Positions 15-9,814 of a DNA stretch of 64,000 nucleotides are shown here, piece by piece. Numbering within the stretch: position 1 is the first letter of the stretch; each line of letters opens with the position of its first letter. Below the pieces are notes generated by a model, which worked only from the letters and a program-made list of their open reading frames with translations, had not been told where the DNA came from and searched no databases. Source of the stretch: Pelolinea sp. (GTDB lineage Bacteria; Chloroflexota; Anaerolineae; Anaerolineales; Anaerolineaceae); contig JAAZOD010000020.1 in assembly GCA_012797975.1 (NCBI GenBank), forward strand, positions 1 to 64,000. Direction: 5' to 3'. A program made the position numbers and the translations under genes.

Positions 15-20
15 TATAAT
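15..20 (+). promoter_or_regulatory. -10 box upstream of the gntR-type gene
   Basis: A perfect TATAAT lies here and overlaps the first in-frame ATG at position 19. Transcription should therefore begin near position 27, so the start codon at 19 cannot be used and an ATG at 49 or 58 is more likely. The -35 region lies outside the window. Confidence 0.5.
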
Positions 21-48
21 GGATATATTAACATATATACATATTAAC

Positions 49-792
49 ATGCAAAATATGGACTACTCACCTCTCAATAAAGAAAAACATCTCTACCTGC
101 AGATCGCTGCCCAGATCATGCAGAAGATCGAAAATTCCGAATGGAAGGTCGGCGATATGATCCCTTCGGAACGGGAACTGGCTGATATCTTCAAGGTCAG
201 CCGCATCACCACCAAAAAAGCGGTGGAATACCTGCAGGAAAAAGGCTTGATCTACCGCGAGGTCGGGCGCGGCACTTTCATCGCCCAGCCCAAGATGCAG
301 AACATCGTCGCCTTCAAGGGTTTTTCCGAATATATCGCCTCAAAGGGCGGCAGACCCGGCTCCATTATCTTGGAGCAATCCCTCCAGAAACCCACCGCCA
401 AACTGGCGGCGGAACTGCAGATCCGCGAAGATGACGCGATCGTCTATATCGAGCGCATCCGCACCGCCAATGACCAGATCGTTGCCTTGCAGAATTCTTC
501 CATCCCCTCCAAACTCTGCCCGGGGCTTGACCAGCAGGATCTTGCCAACCGTTCGCTCTATACCATCTTCAAAGAGAAATACGGCATTTACCCTGCCTGG
601 ACGGAGGTTGTCATGCAGGCCTGCCTGGCTGACCCGAATGAGGCAAAACTGCTGAAGATCCAGCCGGGCGATGCGCTGCTGGTGGTGAAAGCGTTATCGT
701 ATACCGAAAAGTTCGAGATCATTGAAAAGGTAATTACCAAGTATGTCGGCAGTTATATGGATCTCTATATCGGCCGGCAGAGAATTGAATGA
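49..792 (+). CDS. GntR/HutC family transcriptional regulator with UTRA domain
   Basis: Probable ligand-responsive repressor of the amino-sugar PTS operon that follows. The N-terminal third holds a winged helix-turn-helix of the GntR type (short motifs PSERELA and SRITTKKAVEYL). The rest matches the UTRA effector-binding domain, which in this family binds sugar phosphates such as GlcNAc-6P. The start at 49 (or 58) is chosen because the -10 box covers the upstream ATG at 19. The stop is 6 bases before the deacetylase-like gene, which supports an autoregulated operon. The effector is inferred only from the neighbours. Family assignment is firm; the regulated sugar is not. Confidence 0.9.
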   Translation: MQNMDYSPLNKEKHLYLQIAAQIMQKIENSEWKVGDMIPSERELADIFKVSRITTKKAVEYLQEKGLIYREVGRGTFIAQPKMQNIVAFKGFSEYIASKGGRPGSIILEQSLQKPTAKLAAELQIREDDAIVYIERIRTANDQIVALQNSSIPSKLCPGLDQQDLANRSLYTIFKEKYGIYPAWTEVVMQACLADPNEAKLLKIQPGDALLVVKALSYTEKFEIIEKVITKYVGSYMDLYIGRQRIE

Positions 793-798
793 CCGCTC

Positions 799-1491
799 AT
801 GGCTGAAACGAAGAGTAAGATCGCAATCATCGGTGCGCACGCCATGGATGCCGAATTAATGGGTGGCTCCATTGCGTATGCCTTGCACGAAAAAGGGTGG
901 GAATGTTATTTCATTCATATCACCCGCGGTGAGCGCGGCAACCCTAATAAATCTCCGGCCAGCTTTGGCGAACAGCTCGAGATCGAAATGCAGGCCTGTG
1001 CCGAAAAACTGCATGCCACCCCGCTGTGGGCGGGCTTTATGGCTGGTTCCGTTCCGCCGGCGGAGTGCAGCGCTTTCCTTGCAAAAACCATTGTCGACTT
1101 GGAACTGGACGTGGTCATCACCCACTGGAAAGGTTCTTTCCATCCGCGCCACCGCCTTGTGCACGATTGTGTGCTGGATGGGCTGGCGCTTGCCGAAAAA
1201 GAAGGATATCGCCTGAAGGGGTTGTATTTCGGAGAGAACATGGAAGACCTGGAGGGTTTTTCTCCAAGTCTGTATGTGGATATTTCTGAAGTGTATGAAA
1301 CTTGGTTTGATGCCATGGCGAGCTACGAGCTCTTCCGCAATTCTCCCAATGGCTTCCCTTACCAGTCTTTTTACTCTGCCAATTCCCGCCTGCGCGGGCT
1401 CGAGAGCGGATGCAAGTATGCCAAATGCTTGATGCTCCACAAATCGAGAGCAACCGATCTGAGGGTGGGCTATCAACCAATTCTTGGGTAA
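799..1491 (+). CDS. PIG-L/LmbE family deacetylase-like protein with altered active site
   Basis: Related to zinc N-deacetylases that act on N-acetyl-glucosamine derivatives. The family's AHPDDxE motif is present as AHAMDAE at residues 13-19: the zinc-binding His14 and Asp17 are kept, but the Asp used as general base is Met16. The second motif reads HPRHRLVH at residues 115-122, keeping His115 and His118 but with Arg in place of the usual Asp. Length (230 aa) is normal. It is the second gene of a PTS operon for an amino sugar, so it could replace NagA as an amino-sugar-6-phosphate deacetylase, or it may have changed or lost activity. Its role in the pathway is inferred. Confidence 0.85.
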   Translation: MAETKSKIAIIGAHAMDAELMGGSIAYALHEKGWECYFIHITRGERGNPNKSPASFGEQLEIEMQACAEKLHATPLWAGFMAGSVPPAECSAFLAKTIVDLELDVVITHWKGSFHPRHRLVHDCVLDGLALAEKEGYRLKGLYFGENMEDLEGFSPSLYVDISEVYETWFDAMASYELFRNSPNGFPYQSFYSANSRLRGLESGCKYAKCLMLHKSRATDLRVGYQPILG

Positions 1492-1517
1492 ATTCCTTAC
1501 CAGAAAAGCGAGCAACC

Positions 1518-1769
1518 ATGCAAAATAAACAAATAGCGGTTCAATTGATGCAAATACTGGGTGGAAAGGAAAACATTATTAAAGTGGAATGCTGTATGAC
1601 CCGCGTGCGGGTGGAGGTGAAAGACCCCGCTAAGGTGGAAGAAAAGAAGATCAGAGATCTGGAAGGCGTGTTCGGTGTTTTTGGAAAGTCCAATGACCTG
1701 CAGATCGTGTTTGGACCCGGCGACGCGCAGGAAATTGTGCAATCCATGCAAGATCTCTTGGCGAATTAG
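1518..1769 (+). CDS. PTS EIIB component, glucose superfamily
   Basis: Free-standing EIIB protein of 83 residues that passes phosphate from EIIA to the incoming sugar. The phosphorylation-site signature is clear: an ECCMTRVRVEV stretch with the active cysteine at residue 26 just before MTR. The ORF is open further upstream, but domain length and the family's usual N-terminus favour the ATG at 1518. EIIB, EIIC and EIIA are three separate polypeptides in this operon, unlike MurP and NagE, in which B and C are fused. It follows the deacetylase-like gene by 26 bases. Confidence 0.93.
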   Translation: MQNKQIAVQLMQILGGKENIIKVECCMTRVRVEVKDPAKVEEKKIRDLEGVFGVFGKSNDLQIVFGPGDAQEIVQSMQDLLAN

Positions 1770-1788
1770 CTGACCGGAAATTCATTCT

Positions 1789-1825
1789 AGGAGGTGCTTA
1801 TCGGATGATGCTGTTTTGTTGGTAG
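1789..1825 (+). other. strong Shine-Dalgarno with a six-codon mini-ORF before EIIC
   Basis: AGGAGGTG at 1789-1796 is followed, 8 bases on, by ATGATG and a stop after six codons (MMLFCW, stop at 1823-1825). The EIIC gene has its own site (AAAGGAG) before 1848. The strongest ribosome site in the operon thus serves either a leader peptide or nothing. Confidence 0.3.
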
Positions 1826-1847
1826 AAGATTAAAGGAGTTTATTAAA

Positions 1848-2882
1848 ATGGCTAAGGAAACGAAAAATTTTGGAAAAACGATTTTAAATGCGTTGAACGA
1901 AATCTTTACACCCATTATTCCTGCATTGATCGGTGGTGGTTTGGTGGCAGGAATCGGGAAAATGCTGCAGAGTTTTGGCGTTGATGCAAGTCTCACTTGG
2001 ATGAAGGTCTTAATATTAATCGGTTTCTCGGCGTACACCTATATCATCATCCTGGTTGCCATGAACTCTGCCAAATATATTGGTGGTTCCCCTGCCTTGG
2101 GCGCGGTCGCCGGTATGATCATGATCAATCCTTCGCTTACCGATATCGGTCTGACCGTGGGTCGCGGAGGCGTTTTCGGCGCGGTTCTGGCTGGCCTGTT
2201 GATCGCAGTGATCGAAAAGAAGGTCAAAGAGATCGCCCCTAAAGCCCTCAAGATTCATTTGCCTCCCTTTGTCGCTCTCATCGTGGCGGGTGTGATCATC
2301 CTGTACGTCCTGCAACCGGTCACCGGCTGGTTCAGCAACATCTTGACTAGCTTCATCCTCTGGATGCTGGATAAAGGTGGTGCGGTAGCAGGTTCTGTCA
2401 TTGCAGCGCTTTATCTGCCCCTGGTCATGACGGGTATGCATCACGGCCTTACCCCCATCCATCTGCAACTCATCGAAGAGGTCGGTTATTCTACCCTGCA
2501 AACCCTGAACAGCATGGCTGGCGCAGGACAGGTTGGAGCGGCATTGGCGCTCTTGCTGAAATTCCGCAATGACGAGAATTTCAAGAACATTATTAAAGGT
2601 GCTTTACCGGTAGGAATTTTAGGGATAGGTGAACCTCTTATCTACGGCGTTACGCTCCCTCTCTTCAAACCCTTCATCACAGCTTGTTTGGGCGCGGCAG
2701 TCGGTGGTGCGATCGTTGGTTTTCTCGGCTTTGGAGCCCGGGCGGTATATGTTTCCGGCATCCTGGCCATCGCTACCAATTCGAATGTGCTGTATTACAT
2801 TATTAGTTATAGCGCTGCGGTCTTGGCGGGATTTGTCTTTACATCCTTGCTGAAGTTCCCGGAAAAGAAAGCGGAAGAATAG
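1848..2882 (+). CDS. PTS EIIC permease, glucose superfamily
   Basis: Membrane channel that moves the sugar during phosphorylation. The 344-residue protein is almost wholly hydrophobic, with about 8-10 membrane segments. It carries EIIC features: IFTPIIPALIGGGLVAG near the N-terminus, GMHHGLTPIHLQ in the middle and the conserved GIGEPLIYGVTLP loop. It lacks fused EIIB or EIIA domains. An AAAGGAG site precedes the ATG. The GntR, MupG and EIIA neighbours point to an N-acetylmuramic-acid-containing sugar as substrate, but sequence alone does not fix the specificity within the sucrose/beta-glucoside/MurNAc branch. Confidence 0.93.
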   Translation: MAKETKNFGKTILNALNEIFTPIIPALIGGGLVAGIGKMLQSFGVDASLTWMKVLILIGFSAYTYIIILVAMNSAKYIGGSPALGAVAGMIMINPSLTDIGLTVGRGGVFGAVLAGLLIAVIEKKVKEIAPKALKIHLPPFVALIVAGVIILYVLQPVTGWFSNILTSFILWMLDKGGAVAGSVIAALYLPLVMTGMHHGLTPIHLQLIEEVGYSTLQTLNSMAGAGQVGAALALLLKFRNDENFKNIIKGALPVGILGIGEPLIYGVTLPLFKPFITACLGAAVGGAIVGFLGFGARAVYVSGILAIATNSNVLYYIISYSAAVLAGFVFTSLLKFPEKKAEE

Positions 2883-2893
2883 TTCATCTATGA

Positions 2894-2957
2894 ACAGAGT
2901 CTGGACTGATCGGATCGCTGTTTACGGCAGATTGCTTCGATTAGCTCCAGACTCTGT
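2894..2957 (+). repeat. long inverted repeat between EIIC and mupG
   Basis: A 12-bp perfect stem (ACAGAGTCTGGA at 2894-2905, complement at 2946-2957) encloses a 40-base loop in the only sizable gap of the operon. No T-run follows, so it is not a standard terminator. It may be an RNA-stability or processing element that separates transporter from enzyme genes. Confidence 0.4.
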
Positions 2958-2998
2958 AAATATTGAGTATAACATTAACCACTTGTCGGAAGAGACCT

Positions 2999-4129
2999 AT
3001 GAATTCCATGCGACCAAAAATTGAGCTGGGCATCTCGGTATATCTGCAAGATTTTCTCGATGATCGTCCGGCCACCCGGCAATACCTCGATACCGCTGCG
3101 GAACTTGGTTTTCACGAAGTGTTCACCTCCATTCACTTGCCGGAGGATGATTTCTTGAAAACTACTGCAGCGCTCAGGGATTTTTCCGAACTTGTTGCAA
3201 ACAAGGGCATGCATCTTGCTGTGGATTGTTCTTCTCATGAGTTAAAAAAGATACAGGCGAATGCCGCGTTGCAAGAAGCGCTGAAACATTCCCCCGTCAC
3301 CTATCTGCGCCTTGACTTTGGCTTTCAACCCGCTGACCTGCGTGCCATTACCCGTGACCTGCATATCCATGGTTTCATGCTCAACGCATCGACCATGCGC
3401 AGAACGGAGGTCAAGGAGATGGTGGCTGCGCTGCGCCAGTTTTCCCATACCCTGGCCATCAAGGCCTGCCACAACTTTTATCCCCGGCCCGAAACCGGCC
3501 TGGGAACGGATTTCTTCATCCGTCAATCCGCTTGTTTCAAGGACCTGGGAATTCCCGTGGCTGCCTGCGTGCCTTCACATAATAAACCCAGAGGGCCGCT
3601 CCATTTGGGATTGCCTACCCTTGAAAGCCACCGCGGCATGGAGATCGACTGGGCTGCCAGGGAACTCATCGCGACCGGAGTGGTGGATGAGATTCTGGTA
3701 GGTGACCCCTTTGCCTCCGCACAGGAACTGGGAAAGTTGCAGAAGGCGGCTGACTCGCCGGTATTGGTGGTGAGGGTGATTGAGGACGAAGGTGTATCGG
3801 AGGCGGAACGGAAGATCATGTATGGCATCACCCATGTCGTGCGCCCCGATCTTTCTGATTGGGTGTTCCGTTCGAATTCTTCGCGTGAAATGGCCGCCAT
3901 GGGCGAAAAGCTGGCTGCCCGGGATGCAAAACTGCGTGTTCCCTGTTCGATCACCATTGATAATGAGAAGTATGGTCGTTATTCGGGAGAGCTGCAAATT
4001 GTCAGGCAGGAGCTGCCTGCTGATGAAAGGGTGAATGTGGTGGGAAGGATCTTCCCGCAGGATATCTGCTTGTTGCGTTACATTGCGGCAGGAGCAGAGT
4101 TTCGATTGCAGCGATATGATGGAGCGTAA
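2999..4129 (+). CDS. mupG: MupG-like 6-phospho-N-acetylmuramidase (DUF871 family)
   Basis: Likely cytoplasmic glycosidase that splits MurNAc-6-phosphate-beta-1,4-GlcNAc after PTS import of peptidoglycan disaccharide. The 376-residue protein fits the family: an N-terminal TIM-barrel starting at LGISVYLQDF and a smaller C-terminal domain beyond about residue 240. Conserved-looking stretches include CHNFYPRPETGLG, VPSHNKPRGPLHLGLPTLE and GITHVVRPDLSDWVFRS. The start at 2999 is preceded by GGAAGAG at good spacing; 3008 is the alternative. In Staphylococcus this enzyme clusters with murQ, murP and murR. Here it is surrounded by separate PTS proteins and no murQ is visible. It overlaps the EIIA gene by 14 bases. 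Confidence 0.88.
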   Translation: MNSMRPKIELGISVYLQDFLDDRPATRQYLDTAAELGFHEVFTSIHLPEDDFLKTTAALRDFSELVANKGMHLAVDCSSHELKKIQANAALQEALKHSPVTYLRLDFGFQPADLRAITRDLHIHGFMLNASTMRRTEVKEMVAALRQFSHTLAIKACHNFYPRPETGLGTDFFIRQSACFKDLGIPVAACVPSHNKPRGPLHLGLPTLESHRGMEIDWAARELIATGVVDEILVGDPFASAQELGKLQKAADSPVLVVRVIEDEGVSEAERKIMYGITHVVRPDLSDWVFRSNSSREMAAMGEKLAARDAKLRVPCSITIDNEKYGRYSGELQIVRQELPADERVNVVGRIFPQDICLLRYIAAGAEFRLQRYDGA

Positions 4130-4583
4130 AATAGAGATTTTTTCACCAGCCACCGGGAACGTGATCGCTTTGAAGGATGTTCCGGATGAGGTTTTTTCCA
4201 CGGGCTTGATGGGTCAGGGTTTGGCGGTCCAATTGGACGGTTCCGATTGGACGATCTGCTCCCCGCTGGATGCAGAGTGTTCGGCAATATTTCCAACCGG
4301 CCATGCCGTTGCTTTGCGCCATGAATGCGGGCTGGAAATGCTGATCCATGTTGGTGTGGATACGTTCCGCGAAGAGGGTGCCTTTGAAAAGAAAGTTGTG
4401 GAAAAGCAAAGGGTGGTTCAAGGCCAACCTTTGCTCCATATTGAAGGGGCTTGTTTCCCAGCGGATTTTCCGCTGGTCATTTTTACACTGCTTAATGGTA
4501 AAGAATTTACAGTAGTGACAAAATTTAAAGAGAAAGTCGTTGCGAATAAGACCGTTTTATTCGTGCTTACGAAGGAGATGTAG
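4116..4583 (+). CDS. PTS EIIA component, glucose (Crr) type
   Basis: Soluble phosphocarrier between HPr and EIIB. It is a typical single EIIA-Glc fold of 155 residues: SPATGNVIALKDVPD at the N-terminus, the supporting histidine in TGHAVALR (His63) and the phosphorylated histidine in LIHVGVDT (His78), followed by the ending VTKFKEKVV...TVLFV. The ORF is open upstream inside mupG, so the start was placed at 4116 from domain length; 4119 is equally possible. It overlaps the mupG end by 14 bases and abuts the SIS gene at 4584 (stop codon adjacent to ATG), indicating translational coupling. Confidence 0.93.
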   Translation: MMERKIEIFSPATGNVIALKDVPDEVFSTGLMGQGLAVQLDGSDWTICSPLDAECSAIFPTGHAVALRHECGLEMLIHVGVDTFREEGAFEKKVVEKQRVVQGQPLLHIEGACFPADFPLVIFTLLNGKEFTVVTKFKEKVVANKTVLFVLTKEM

Positions 4584-5342
4584 ATGTCAGCAGAAGTATA
4601 TCTGGATACGATTCAAAAGATTATCACTGATCTTGATACGACCAGTATGGAAGGGATCAAAAAGACGGCCAGGGCTATGGCAAATTCCATCAAAGCCGGC
4701 CGGGCGGTCTATTATTATGGTTCCGGTCATTCGGCGCTGCCCGTTTTGGATGTGTTCCCGCGCTACGGTTCTTTTCTTGGGATCCAGCCCATCCATGACC
4801 CTCGCCTCACCTGGACCAATGTCATGGGCCCCGGTGGAACCCCGGAGCTGCTGTGGTTGGAAAGGCAGGAAGGATATGTCGCCAATGTGCTGCGTTCCTA
4901 TGAGATCACTCCGCAGGATACCATGATCGTATTTTCACACGGGGGGCTGAATGCAGCCGCCATTGAAGCGGCCATCATTGGAAAAAAGAACGGGGCTAGC
5001 GTGGCGGCGGTAACCTCCATGCAGAATTACCGCATCAATCCGCCGCAGCATTCGTCTGGCAAGAAACTGGCCGACGTGGCGGATTTTGTCATTGATAATG
5101 GAGCGCCGCCGGAAGATGCCGTGGTGCACCTGAAAAATTGGGAAGAACCGGTGGCCGCTTCCTCCACGGTGATGGTGATCGTCATTTCCATGACGCTGCT
5201 GGCTGAAACTGCCAGCATCCTGGCCAGCGAGGGAGAATACCGGCCCACCTTCGCCTCCCCCAATGTGGTCACCGATCCCGATCATGATTACAAGGTGTAT
5301 GAGCAATACAAGGTGTTCCATAAGCACATCATTGGATATTAA
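4584..5342 (+). CDS. SIS-domain sugar-phosphate binding protein (UPF0309-like), copy 1
   Basis: SIS domains bind phosphosugars and occur in isomerases, GlmS, the MurNAc-6P etherase MurQ and regulators. This 252-residue protein has the signature YYYGSGHSALP at residues 43-53 and the second phosphate-binding loop VFSHGGLNAAAIE. It lacks the DNA-binding domain of RpiR regulators, so it is probably an enzyme. With MupG upstream and no MurQ or NagB in the operon, it could do the etherase or the glucosamine-6P deaminase/isomerase step. This is inferred. It starts directly at the EIIA stop codon and a related copy follows. Confidence 0.82.
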   Translation: MSAEVYLDTIQKIITDLDTTSMEGIKKTARAMANSIKAGRAVYYYGSGHSALPVLDVFPRYGSFLGIQPIHDPRLTWTNVMGPGGTPELLWLERQEGYVANVLRSYEITPQDTMIVFSHGGLNAAAIEAAIIGKKNGASVAAVTSMQNYRINPPQHSSGKKLADVADFVIDNGAPPEDAVVHLKNWEEPVAASSTVMVIVISMTLLAETASILASEGEYRPTFASPNVVTDPDHDYKVYEQYKVFHKHIIGY

Positions 5343-5380
5343 AAAATTTTTTTAGGGATGACGAAAGAGGTGCACGGAAT

Positions 5381-6118
5381 ATGGCAGGATTGGCTTATTT
5401 TGAGGCGATGATGCCTGTGCTGCAGAAAGCGATCGCCACGCAGACGGAAAATATCAGGATCCTGGCGCGCTGGATGGCAGATGCGATCAAGAATGATCAC
5501 CTGATCTATGTCTTTGGCGCCGGGCATGCGGGCATGATCGCTGAAGAGATGTGCTACCGCGCCGGCAGTCTTGTCCCCACCAATGCCATTCTGCCCCCTG
5601 GTTTGACCGTGAATACCCGCCCTCTTCCAATGGAAACGGAGTTGGAACGGCTGCCAGGGATGGCGGCTGTCCTCTTGAAAGCGAGCCGCATCCGGCAGGG
5701 CGATCTCTTGATCGTCCATTCCAACTCGGGCAGGAATACCGTTGCGATCGAATTGGCCGAGATGGCTAAAAAAGATGGCATTCAAGTGGTTGTATTGACC
5801 AGCGTCAGCCATAGCCGCAGTGTACCTTCGCGCCACCCCGGCGGTGTGAAGCTCATGGATGTGGCTGACCTGGTGATCGATAACTGCGGCATTCCGGGGG
5901 ATGCGGTGGTGGCGTTTGAGGGGCTTGACCAGCGCAGCGGTGCCACTTCAACGGTGGTGGGTGCTGCGCTGATGAATGCGGCCATTTGCGAGGCGGTCCA
6001 GATCTTGCTCGATGAACAAGTGTCGCCCCCCGTTTTCCAGAGCGCAAATCTGGATGGCAGCGATCAGCACAATCAGGATTTAATGGATCGCTATGCAGGT
6101 CGTCTGCTGTATCTCTAG
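5381..6118 (+). CDS. SIS-domain sugar-phosphate binding protein (UPF0309-like), copy 2
   Basis: Second SIS protein of the operon, 245 residues, colinear with the previous one. Shared features are YVFGAGHAGMIAEE at residues 43-56, HSNSGRNTVAIELA, and a C-terminal half with matching blocks (VADLVIDN, GDAVV, GATSTVV). The two loops differ enough that the paralogues probably act on different substrates or form a hetero-oligomer. The last gene of the MurNAc-type operon, it is followed by a short stem and then by repeats. Enzymatic identity is not established; a MurQ-like or NagB-like role is the leading guess. Confidence 0.82.
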   Translation: MAGLAYFEAMMPVLQKAIATQTENIRILARWMADAIKNDHLIYVFGAGHAGMIAEEMCYRAGSLVPTNAILPPGLTVNTRPLPMETELERLPGMAAVLLKASRIRQGDLLIVHSNSGRNTVAIELAEMAKKDGIQVVVLTSVSHSRSVPSRHPGGVKLMDVADLVIDNCGIPGDAVVAFEGLDQRSGATSTVVGAALMNAAICEAVQILLDEQVSPPVFQSANLDGSDQHNQDLMDRYAGRLLYL

Positions 6119-7049: not shown

Positions 7050-7805
7050 TTATTCCTGGATGGCTTGGCGCAGATGACGAGAAAGCTGGATGAAACGGGG
7101 ATCGTAGCGCGTTTCTTCGCTGCGCGGGCGCGGCAGGTCGTTCAGCATATCCAGGCACACCGTTCCCGGGCGGCGGCTGAGTACGATCACCCGATCGGAA
7201 AGTAGCAGCGACTCTGAGATGGAATGGGTTACCAGCACCACGGTTTTGCGACTTTGTTCCCAGATGTGCAGCAGTTCCGCCCCCATGCGCTCGCGGGTGA
7301 TGGCATCCAGAGCGCCAAACGGTTCATCCAGCAGCAGCAGGTCAGGGTCCTGGATGAGCGCCCGCGCGATCGCCACCCGCTGCGCCATCCCCCCCGAAAG
7401 GGTGGCTGGCCAGGCGTGCGCAAAATCCTGCAAGCCGACCAACTCTACCATCCGCTGGGTGCGTCCGGCGCTCTCCGCTTCGGGCAGCTTTCGCAGTTCC
7501 AATGGCAGCGTGATGTTTTCCCAAACATCACGCCAGGGCATCAGGTTTGCTTGCTGGAAGACCAATCCTACCGATGGCTGTTGATCTTGTGGGTAAAGGA
7601 TGCTGCCTGCGGTGGGGGTTAACAAACCGGCCAGCAAGCGCAGCAGGGTGCTTTTGCCGCTTCCCGAAGGTCCCAAAATGCACAGGAACTGCCGCGGCGG
7701 TACCGTAAAATGGATATGCTCCAATGCCTCCAATTCCCCATCCTTTTCGGGAAAGGTCATGCTGACATCCTGGAATTGAAAGGCAAAGGATCCTGTCTCG
7801 TTCAT
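7050..7805 (-). CDS. ABC transporter ATP-binding protein (riboflavin-type uptake)
   Basis: Energy-coupling ATPase of the importer formed with the next two upstream genes. All ABC motifs are visible: Walker A GPSGSGKSTLL, signature LSGGMAQRVAIARAL, Walker B LLLLDEPFGALD and the switch histidine in LVTHS. By sequence it belongs to the nitrate/taurine/thiamine-precursor subfamily, which would normally suggest those substrates. However, the operon leader is an FMN riboswitch, so flavin or a flavin precursor is the better call. The start codon overlaps the stop of the binding-protein gene by 4 bases (ATGA). Confidence 0.9.
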   Translation of the reverse strand: MNETGSFAFQFQDVSMTFPEKDGELEALEHIHFTVPPRQFLCILGPSGSGKSTLLRLLAGLLTPTAGSILYPQDQQPSVGLVFQQANLMPWRDVWENITLPLELRKLPEAESAGRTQRMVELVGLQDFAHAWPATLSGGMAQRVAIARALIQDPDLLLLDEPFGALDAITRERMGAELLHIWEQSRKTVVLVTHSISESLLLSDRVIVLSRRPGTVCLDMLNDLPRPRSEETRYDPRFIQLSRHLRQAIQE

Positions 7806-8797
7806 AGTTCAGGGATGAATTCGTTGGTGAATGCGTCTTCCAGTGTCAGGGGGTTGCTCATCAAACCCATCTCAAGCAGAATATCCTGCGTGTTCTGCCA
7901 GGCAGCCAGATCGGAAACCCCTCCTTTTTCAACCTGCCAGAGGGTTATGGAACTTTTGAGCACTTCTTTTTGGATCTGCTGGTCGGCATCGGACATGGAA
8001 GAGAGGTTTTCAACATGTTTTTCGCAGATGTCGAAGACTTCATCCAGGTTCTCCGGCTGGCTGACGTAGATAAGGCCTCTCATCAAGGCGGTATTCATCC
8101 TGCGCACTAGCTCGGGGTTTTCTCGGATGGTCTTTTCGTTGGTGATGAGTCCATTGGCAGCCAGATCTACATAATCATAGACGGGAATGACGTTCACCGC
8201 ATATCCTTCGGCCTGCAAGCGGATGGGTTCGTTGCTCACATAGATGACCGCCGCATCTTCCTGGTGATTGACCAGCGTTTCAACCTGGGTATAGCCGATC
8301 GAATCCAGGGTCATGTCGCTTTCCTGCATTTCATTGGCGTGCAGCAGGGCGCGAAAGCCGATATAGCTGGCGCCATACAGGCCGGGGATGCCCACTTTCT
8401 TCCCTGCCAGGTCAGCCGGTTCTTGAATGCCGCTTTCCTGCAGTGCCACCACCCCCACCGGGAAACGCTGGTACCAGGCCATCACATAGACCACCGGCAG
8501 CTCCTGGGCGCGGCCCAACAGCACCTGTTCTCCGGAAACGACCGCAAAATCCAGCTCTCCTGCCCCCACCAGTGCAACAGAGTCGGTTTCCATGTTGTAG
8601 TCGATGGTCAAAGCGATGCCTTCCTCGGCGAAGTATCCTTTTTCAATGGCGACATACAGGGGGGCGAACTGCACGTTGGGAATGTATCCCACCGGCAGCG
8701 TAATCTCGGTTAACGCGTTGTTCTTATCGCCTTGTTGTACAGAGCATGCGCTCAGCAGGAGGATCGATAAAAGGGTGAGAATAATGTTTTTTTTCAT
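7802..8797 (-). CDS. ribY: ABC substrate-binding lipoprotein, RibY-like (NMT1/THI5 fold)
   Basis: Extracytoplasmic ligand-capture lipoprotein. Signal peptide with lipobox LLSAC gives lipid-modified Cys18. The mature part has NMT1/ThiY-type features: LPVGYIPNVQFAPLYVAIEKGYF and the DLAGKKVGIPGLYGAS loop. ThiY-like binding proteins occur in both pyrimidine and riboflavin transporters; the FMN aptamer upstream favours riboflavin (RibY). The start at 8797 is set by GGAG eight bases upstream and by the signal peptide; the ORF extends to 8866 without support. It lies 13 bases after the permease stop. Confidence 0.87.
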   Translation of the reverse strand: MKKNIILTLLSILLLSACSVQQGDKNNALTEITLPVGYIPNVQFAPLYVAIEKGYFAEEGIALTIDYNMETDSVALVGAGELDFAVVSGEQVLLGRAQELPVVYVMAWYQRFPVGVVALQESGIQEPADLAGKKVGIPGLYGASYIGFRALLHANEMQESDMTLDSIGYTQVETLVNHQEDAAVIYVSNEPIRLQAEGYAVNVIPVYDYVDLAANGLITNEKTIRENPELVRRMNTALMRGLIYVSQPENLDEVFDICEKHVENLSSMSDADQQIQKEVLKSSITLWQVEKGGVSDLAAWQNTQDILLEMGLMSNPLTLEDAFTNEFIPEL

Positions 8798-8810
8798 GTC
8801 ACTTCTCCAA

Positions 8811-9599
8811 TCATTTTGCTTCTTGCCAGCGCAGCAGGCGCTTTTCGAGCAGAAGTACGCTGCCATATAAGATCAGCGCTAAAAATACCAGGGTGAACAC
8901 TGCCACAAATACCAGGGCGGTATCATATTGGCCGCGCCCGACGTTGATCAAAAAACCCAGTCCTTTATCGGCGCCGGCCAGTTCTCCTACCACAGCCCCG
9001 ATCACGGAGAGGGTGGCGCTGACGCGCATCCCCCCCAGCAAGACGGGCAGGGAGGCAGGCATTTCAAGGCGTGTGAACGTTTGCCAGCGTGTGGCGTGCA
9101 GGGTGGTCATCAGGTCGCGCATGGCCGCCGGCACGGCGTGCAACCCGATCAAAGTATTGACCAGCATCGGGAAGAATACGGTCAGCGAGCAGATGAGCAC
9201 TTTTGAAAGCACACCGGAACCGAACCAGATGATGAGCAACGGGGCGATGGCGGCAACGGGAACTGCCTGGCTGGCCACCAGGAACGGCGAAAGCACTCGC
9301 TCTAAGAATTTTGACTTTGAAAGCAGATAGCCCAGCAGGGTTGCACTGAAAATTCCGATGGCCAATCCGCTGAGCATTTCGGTTAGGGTTGCCAGCAGAT
9401 GGCGCAGCAAACTGCCGTCGTTGCAGGCGGTGAGAAAGCGCTGTCCTACCTGCAAAGGGGAAGGTAGAATGAACGCCGGGAATTTGAAGAGGAAGACCAG
9501 AAGCTGCCAGCCAGCCAAAAAGAGCAGGAGAGCCAGCGGGTAGGTCCACCCGGCCGGTTTGGAAGCGTGCTTTTGCGTGTTGCTCTGTTTTTTCATCAT
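8811..9599 (-). CDS. ribX: ABC transporter permease, RibX-like
   Basis: Membrane subunit of the importer, 262 residues, with about six membrane segments and the fold of the SsuC/TauC/ThiX family. The cytoplasmic coupling loop reads MPASLPVLLGGMRVSATLSV. It is the first gene after the riboswitch. Two start codons are possible, at 9599 and 9596, both directly after the T-run of the regulatory terminator. The AGGG of the terminator stem is the nearest Shine-Dalgarno-like sequence, so folding could hide it. Substrate (riboflavin or a related flavin) is inferred from the riboswitch. Confidence 0.88.
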   Translation of the reverse strand: MMKKQSNTQKHASKPAGWTYPLALLLFLAGWQLLVFLFKFPAFILPSPLQVGQRFLTACNDGSLLRHLLATLTEMLSGLAIGIFSATLLGYLLSKSKFLERVLSPFLVASQAVPVAAIAPLLIIWFGSGVLSKVLICSLTVFFPMLVNTLIGLHAVPAAMRDLMTTLHATRWQTFTRLEMPASLPVLLGGMRVSATLSVIGAVVGELAGADKGLGFLINVGRGQYDTALVFVAVFTLVFLALILYGSVLLLEKRLLRWQEAK

Positions 9600-9604
9600 T
9601 AAAC

Positions 9605-9629
9605 AAAAAACCCTGAAAAGTGTTCAGGG
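9605..9629 (-). terminator. intrinsic terminator of the FMN riboswitch
   Basis: On the reverse strand a 7-bp stem CCCTGAA/TTCAGGG is followed at once by six T residues, directly before the permease start. It lies 18 bases downstream of the FMN aptamer. This is the expected place for the expression platform; its 3' arm also holds the only Shine-Dalgarno-like AGGG. Confidence 0.85.
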
Positions 9630-9647
9630 CTGATCTATTCTGGATAA

Positions 9648-9771
9648 CCTTCTTTCTATCCGGACTGTACCGTCGACCCCGGAATTTCACCGGGTCTGCG
9701 CGTTTCAGCGCTTGTGGGTTGTCACCACCGATCGGGAATTGAGAGCTTGCTCTCGCACCCTGCCCTGAAGG
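9648..9771 (-). promoter_or_regulatory. FMN riboswitch (RFN element)
   Basis: The reverse strand carries the hallmark blocks of the FMN aptamer in order: CTTCAGGGCAGGGTG, AATTCCCGATCGGTGGTGA, a variable arm, GCAGACCCGGTGAAATTCCG, and CGACGGTACAGTCCGGATAGA closing with GAAGG. P1 is formed by CCTTC near 9767-9771 with GAAGG at 9648-9652. A terminator follows, so flavin binding should shut down the ABC transporter operon. Together with its promoter and terminator this explains most of the 326-base gap 9600-9925. Confidence 0.95.
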
Positions 9772-9785
9772 ACTTTCTGAAAGGC

Positions 9786-9814
9786 AGTATACTGCTGCAC
9801 CGGGAACCTGTCAA
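9786..9814 (-). promoter_or_regulatory. promoter of the riboflavin transporter operon
   Basis: Reverse strand TTGACA (9814-9809), a 17-base spacer and TATACT (9791-9786). The predicted start of RNA is about 8 bases before the FMN aptamer. A near-consensus sigma-70 promoter. Confidence 0.8.

Follow-up and report, generated by a model that had tools for sequence, protein, structure and literature searches.

A ribXYZ operon of the Anaerolineaceae as a probable riboflavin importer under an FMN-sensing transcriptional OFF switch

Importers of the RibXY type were predicted from flavin mononucleotide (FMN) riboswitches in Chloroflexi (PMC3766115). In Chloroflexus aurantiacus (Caur_0816-0817; PMC3766115, PMC4418817) such a riboswitch is followed by genes for an ATP-binding cassette (ABC) permease, RibX, and an NMT1/THI5-type binding protein, RibY, and PMC3766115 describes RibXY as lacking an ATPase component. 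The C. aurantiacus ribXY genes rescued an Escherichia coli riboflavin auxotroph (PMC4418817), and Rodionova et al., as cited there, report that RibY binds flavins and that an ATP-binding gene is associated with the system in a few Chloroflexi. This RibXYZ form (Rodionova et al., Environ Microbiol Rep 2015), the same importer with an ATP-binding component, was compared solely through the accounts in PMC4418817 and PMC5312566, in which no difference from our locus was found; the name ribZ has also been given to an unrelated Clostridium difficile transporter (PMC4418817). Here we analyse a ribXYZ operon in a 64,000-nucleotide stretch of Pelolinea sp., family Anaerolineaceae (contig JAAZOD010000020.1, positions 1 to 64,000; hereafter the window). 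Promoter, FMN aptamer, terminator, permease gene, lipoprotein gene and ATPase gene follow one another in that order on the minus strand from 9814 to 7050 (Table 1). As RibXY and RibXYZ have been in print since 2013-2015, the operon adds a member to a described system, and its substrate is not a new point.

We consider it very probable that this operon encodes an ABC importer of riboflavin, perhaps also of other flavins, and is turned off at the level of transcription by an FMN-sensing leader, in an organism that apparently does not make riboflavin. FMN binding, termination and substrate are predicted here from the computed identities of the genes and the RNA, the conservation of the unit, the covariation of the antiterminator and the absence of biosynthetic genes. 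The aptamer match to RF00050 exceeds the curated gathering score (66.2 bits), covers model positions 1-138 of 138 (E 5.7e-18) and is the only FMN riboswitch detected in the source genome. A sequence-only reading of the window had already lined up a promoter, a full FMN aptamer, a terminator and three ABC genes at 7050-9814; the Rfam match, the Pfam domains and the conservation of the leader bear this out, and the coordinates were right; the reading did not mention that all these elements lie on the minus strand.

The locus has the composition of RibXY(Z) systems, an FMN riboswitch ahead of genes for a permease and a binding protein of the sulfonate/nitrate/taurine type, and the PF00005 ATPase gene accompanies the other two. 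RibX shares 45.6% identity with its C. aurantiacus counterpart (241 columns). For RibY the value is 39.8% (309 columns, covering residues 29-329 of 331), which passes the threshold given in PMC4418817 of more than 38% identity over at least 80% of the prototype RibY. The C. aurantiacus genes were recognised by one of the two cloning primers of that paper, which lies just behind ribY; the other primer falls outside the stretch. Whereas the window operon includes ribZ, no RibZ-like match occurs in the 5.3-kb C. aurantiacus stretch. Because RibXY orthology, a conserved FMN riboswitch linkage and the absence of synthesis genes with RibF retained all point the same way, riboflavin is supported as the predicted substrate.

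The unit is widely conserved. An FMN riboswitch is present in 162 of 201 sampled genomes of the order Anaerolineales and in 76 of 101 of the family, in searches with stricter filters that lose weak matches. We examined 114 riboswitch loci in the order, 80 of them from the family and the window included, after dropping three duplicates; loci L055 and L056 are two copies from opposite ends of a single contig. RibX lies behind the riboswitch at 108 of the 114: 75 loci read X-Y-Z, so that ribZ is the third gene in relatives too, 30 read X-Y, and three show X only, the fetched stretch or contig ending there. Four of the six loci without RibX carry riboflavin biosynthesis genes (L045 and L049 contain ribH matches, L059 and L064 begin with ribD), and two (L030, L054) have too little sequence. 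Outside the order, 11 of 20 riboswitch loci from 17 genomes match RibX and RibY, one of them (L242) with an adjacent RibZ match, and nine match none.

Some loci depart from this pattern. At L245, one of these 11 loci, in a genome of another class (G298), the FMN riboswitch sits between a partial RibX-like 3' end and a RibY-like gene, an arrangement absent from the loci of the order. In Anaerolinea thermolimosa one 51.6-kb contig (NZ_DF967968.1; L203/L204, and L055/L056) carries a riboswitch-ribXYZ unit at each end, the two facing opposite ways, which is either a real inverted duplication or an assembly effect. At L145/L161 (Leptolinea sp. UBA4782) two consecutive ribY copies stand between ribX and ribZ, the first of which matches RibY in two separate pieces and looks broken. 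A single in-frame TGA inside the ribY match of L134 (G073) reflects either decay or a sequencing error.

The source genome encodes RibF with both FAD (flavin adenine dinucleotide) synthetase and riboflavin kinase domains and has no riboflavin synthase (PF00677), no 3,4-dihydroxy-2-butanone 4-phosphate (DHBP) synthase (PF00926) and no lumazine synthase (PF00885). Because these three enzymes are missing while RibF is kept, the organism is probably a riboflavin auxotroph: imported riboflavin would be converted to FMN and FAD by RibF, and most of the vitamin B2 would probably enter through the importer. None of the 61 sampled family genomes has a lumazine synthase match, and the control genomes were positive in 14 of 14. 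Across the order PF00885 was found in 14 of 201 genomes, 13 of them with scores above the cut-off, and was missing in 187; in the 109 better genomes it was found in 7. Two family genomes outside this sample, G277 (L059; contamination 6%) and G255 (L064; 4%), have a second FMN riboswitch with ribD behind it, followed at L059 by riboflavin synthase and a ribBA-like open reading frame (ORF). These are either rare cases of retained or acquired biosynthesis or contaminating contigs; unless they are contaminants, loss of biosynthesis is not universal.

Mutually exclusive terminator and antiterminator helices are the usual logic of transcriptional FMN riboswitches, and the leader fits it. The segment TTCAGGGC (9769-9762), which comprises the P1 5' strand with adjoining core, is perfectly complementary to the terminator 5' arm GCCCTGAA (9630-9623), so that the antiterminator and terminator helices have one arm in common and exclude each other. 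At low FMN these segments would pair, transcription would read through, and RibX, RibY and RibZ would be made. At high FMN the ligand would lock P1 and leave the terminator 5' arm free, and the hairpin (9631-9609; -11.3 kcal/mol) would end transcription just ahead of the ribX start. In six of the seven folded leader lengths that contain the arm, P1 strand and terminator arm are paired with each other in the minimum free energy (MFE) structure.

Consensus scans of 4 kb did no better than shuffles (promoters 2 versus 2.4, terminators 5 versus 5.2), so that such scans alone prove nothing and conservation carries the case. A promoter match of at least 10/12 lies within 60 nucleotides (nt) upstream of the aptamer in 75 of the 79 family leaders having 60 nt of upstream sequence, where shuffling leads one to expect about 0.8. 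Among 108 leaders collected for covariation, 104 have a recognisable P1 anchor and four do not; in 94 of the anchored leaders an arm that can pair with the P1 consensus stands directly ahead of a T-run, a combination that the other ten lack. All 8 leaders with A in place of G in P1, the window among them, carry T in the arm, versus 1 of the 86 in which P1 has G (Fisher p 8e-11, uncorrected for relatedness); the leaders with A come from four genera, including that of the window. For this count the arm was located by a fixed consensus blind to the tested position. It replaces an initial count that had picked the arm by complementarity to its own P1 strand and was thereby biased to covariation. 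A second covarying column, 3 of 3 in the initial count, was unconfirmed, as the unbiased run dropped two of the rows and kept one, which is unpaired. The covariation of the P1 strand with the terminator 5' arm supports the predicted FMN-dependent termination.

Several observations weigh against an FMN-controlled riboflavin importer in an auxotroph. The P1 helix of the window aptamer is short, with about five contiguous pairs and two non-standard pairs in the outer part of the model. In the longest folded leader (to 9560) the MFE structure is the terminator and the antiterminator is absent. For the unbound 190-nt leader the MFE is -62.0 kcal/mol, compared with -61.4 whether the antiterminator or the terminator is enforced and -60.1 with P1 plus terminator. 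As these states nearly tie, the switch model depends on ligand energy and folding order; the fold energies are compatible with a switch and are no proof of one. The identity of RibY only just exceeds the 38% threshold of PMC4418817. The 2.57-Mb assembly, in 35 contigs, is 98.5% complete and 4.3% contaminated, so that gene absences are strong and not absolute. The source genome also encodes one energy-coupling factor (ECF) S component (PF12822; L237, G000 contig C4), which could import a vitamin.

That protein was the sole candidate when a second, ECF-type riboflavin importer was sought. Among solved structures it comes closest to 4rfs and 6zg3, which we take to be pantothenate-type ECF transporters, and its match to RibU (3p5n) is no better than E 0.003; its NCBIfam matches are weak and of the ThiT/FolT families only, and its gene lies near ATPase- and transmembrane-type ORFs. 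No RNA element was found near this gene or near ribF, except for a sub-threshold Thr leader match.

Generic homology leads to other substrates. The NCBIfam matches of the operon are to SsuA, taurine, SaoA and SaoP models, and the closest solved structures to the RibY model (42 sequences, pLDDT 94.6) are 3ix1, a ThiY-type protein with a thiamine precursor (Z 31.1, rmsd 3.6, 290 aligned), and 4nmy with thiamin (Z 30.2, rmsd 3.5, 290 aligned), followed by Thi5, 3qsl, SsuA and PqqT. On this evidence the substrate might be a thiamine precursor, taurine or an alkanesulfonate, with the riboswitch in place by chance or rearrangement. We regard this as very unlikely. All listed NCBIfam scores lie far below their curated cut-offs; SsuABC and TauABC belong to the same large ABC group, and identity with either was rejected at 76.5 of 163.5 bits (SsuA family) and 22.9 of 304.25 bits (taurine) for the binding protein. 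The solved relatives share fold and family with RibY at 27-28% identity, and the window leader is an FMN riboswitch; the likeness of fold explains the misleading homology and leaves the ligand undecided. Linkage of riboswitch and RibX at 108 of 114 loci, riboflavin import by the C. aurantiacus orthologue (PMC4418817) and the missing lumazine synthase in the family sample all speak against a non-flavin substrate. The sequence-only reading had held that homology alone misleads and that the aptamer points to riboflavin. Its first half stands for the generic models, and riboflavin is supported; the comparison with RibXY homologues, however, already gives riboflavin by itself. A closer alternative is that the importer takes FMN, FAD or another flavin derivative, instead of or besides riboflavin. 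That the aptamer senses FMN says nothing about which form is imported, and the flavin binding of C. aurantiacus RibY cited in PMC4418817 would suit this too. The rescue of E. coli by RibXY was, however, on riboflavin (PMC4418817), and the riboflavin kinase domain of RibF fits riboflavin import, so that we think this alternative unlikely, less so than a non-flavin substrate.

An addition to the preferred reading, of FMN-dependent termination ahead of a riboflavin importer, is that one hairpin acts at two levels: besides ending transcription as the terminator, its stem would mask the sole ribX ribosome-binding site in transcripts that read through. Thiamine pyrophosphate riboswitches are described in passages of PMC10907184 as acting doubly, via the ribosome site and Rho. 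The sequence-only reading noted that the T-run ends 5 bases ahead of the start codon and that the only AGGG-type ribosome site lies in the terminator stem, and suggested that control of transcription and translation may be joined; both details proved correct, with the T-run at 9610-9605, the ATG at 9599 and the AGGG at 9614-9611. The stem of the window ends 9 nt before the ATG, and the AGGG of its 3' arm is the sole Shine-Dalgarno (SD)-like sequence. Of 77 family leaders, 69 gave usable calls of both terminator and start and eight did not; the stem ends at most 14 nt from the start in 30 of the 69: 24 with ATG, from eight genera (two of them copies from either end of a single contig), and six with TTG. 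The close-stem arrangement of the window thus recurs in several genera. In these 30 leaders the anti-SD energy has a median of +1.05 kcal/mol outside the stem and -5.7 with it, while in the remaining 39 the upstream stretch outside the stem has a median of -5.7 kcal/mol (22 of 39 at -5 or better). Set against this, the G-rich 3' arm is forced, as it must resemble the P1 5' strand, both pairing with the same 5' arm, so that an SD-like string requires no selection for ribosome binding, and geometry places the SD window inside any stem that lies this near the start. The AGGG is also weak (-3.8 kcal/mol): among 13 other genes of the window, six lie at -6.0 to -9.5 and seven at -0.9 to -4.8. Moreover, the terminator lies further from the start in the 39 other leaders, and a terminated transcript already ends ahead of the start codon. 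The architecture is compatible with combined termination and ribosome-site masking, a plausible predicted function, and we treat dual control as possible without expecting it.

A related genus has the importer without the switch. No FMN riboswitch was found in any genome of genus g6 among the order and family genomes listed, and a RibY orthologue is present in 10 of the 11 g6 genomes tested, at 46-53% identity. At ten g6 loci (L146-L150, L152-L156) and one locus of genus g11 (L151), ribX, ribY and ribZ are present and Rfam gives no match even when E values up to 1 are allowed, and no FMN element was seen by eye in the stretches ahead of ribX. L146 and L155 have only about 150-170 nt ahead of ribX and carry little weight; L145 (g96), which starts 50 nt before ribX, is uncounted. 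The leaders of these riboswitch-less loci are short, and the genomes measure 1.7-2.4 Mb (g6) and 4.1 Mb (g11). In g6 the importer seems to lack control by an FMN riboswitch. The widest proposal would join these strands: the Anaerolineaceae hairpin would be FMN-dependent terminator, copy of a P1 strand and ribX ribosome-binding site in one, a single strand exchange would control transcription and translation in several genera, and a small-genome sister genus would have dropped the riboswitch and kept the importer under a plain promoter. We put this forward tentatively, as a shade more doubtful than dual control itself.

Table 1. Features of the ribXYZ operon and its leader in the window.
Feature	Position	Strand	Evidence and remarks
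Sigma-70-like promoter	9786..9814	-	-35 TTGACA 9814-9809, 17-nt spacer, -10 TATACT 9791-9786
FMN riboswitch aptamer (RFN element)	9643..9776	-	Match to RF00050 over the full model, 85.2 bits
Proposed antiterminator, 5' side: P1 5' strand with adjoining core, TTCAGGGC	9762..9769	-	Perfect complement of 9630-9623; MFE folds; covariation
Terminator stem-loop	9609..9631	-	5' arm also pairs with 9769-9762 (antiterminator)
Terminator U-tract	9605..9610	-	Ends 5 nt before ribX start codon
AGGG in terminator 3' arm	9611..9614	-	Sole SD-like sequence ahead of ribX; -3.8 kcal/mol with anti-SD
ribX, ABC permease, 262 aa	8811..9599	-	PF00528 (BPD_transp_1), E 1.9e-30; second ATG at 9596
ribY, NMT1/THI5-type binding lipoprotein, 331 aa	7802..8797	-	PF09084, E 2.9e-49; lipobox cysteine C18
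ribZ, ABC ATPase, 251 aa	7050..7805	-	PF00005 (ABC_tran), E 1.8e-32; start overlaps ribY stop by 4 nt

The lipobox cysteine of RibY is nearly invariant in 42 compared sequences. Elsewhere in the window, at 19-6118, inspection of the ORFs by eye shows a GntR-like regulator, a deacetylase-like protein, phosphotransferase-system-like components and two consecutive SIS-domain-like proteins, a gene row perhaps concerned with amino-sugar uptake.

B-vitamin auxotrophy in the phylum was, judging by its title, already the subject of Rodionova et al. 2015, and our survey of the order extends this theme to many more genomes without being new in idea; a thin search of open-licence papers found no statement of order- or family-wide riboflavin auxotrophy of Anaerolineae. 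The analysis assigns a probable substrate to genes that generic models place in sulfonate/nitrate/taurine or thiamine-precursor transport. It also indicates that most sampled Anaerolineales must take up vitamin B2. Anaerolineales are common in sediments and digesters and, if this holds true, riboflavin would be one factor to supply when culturing them.

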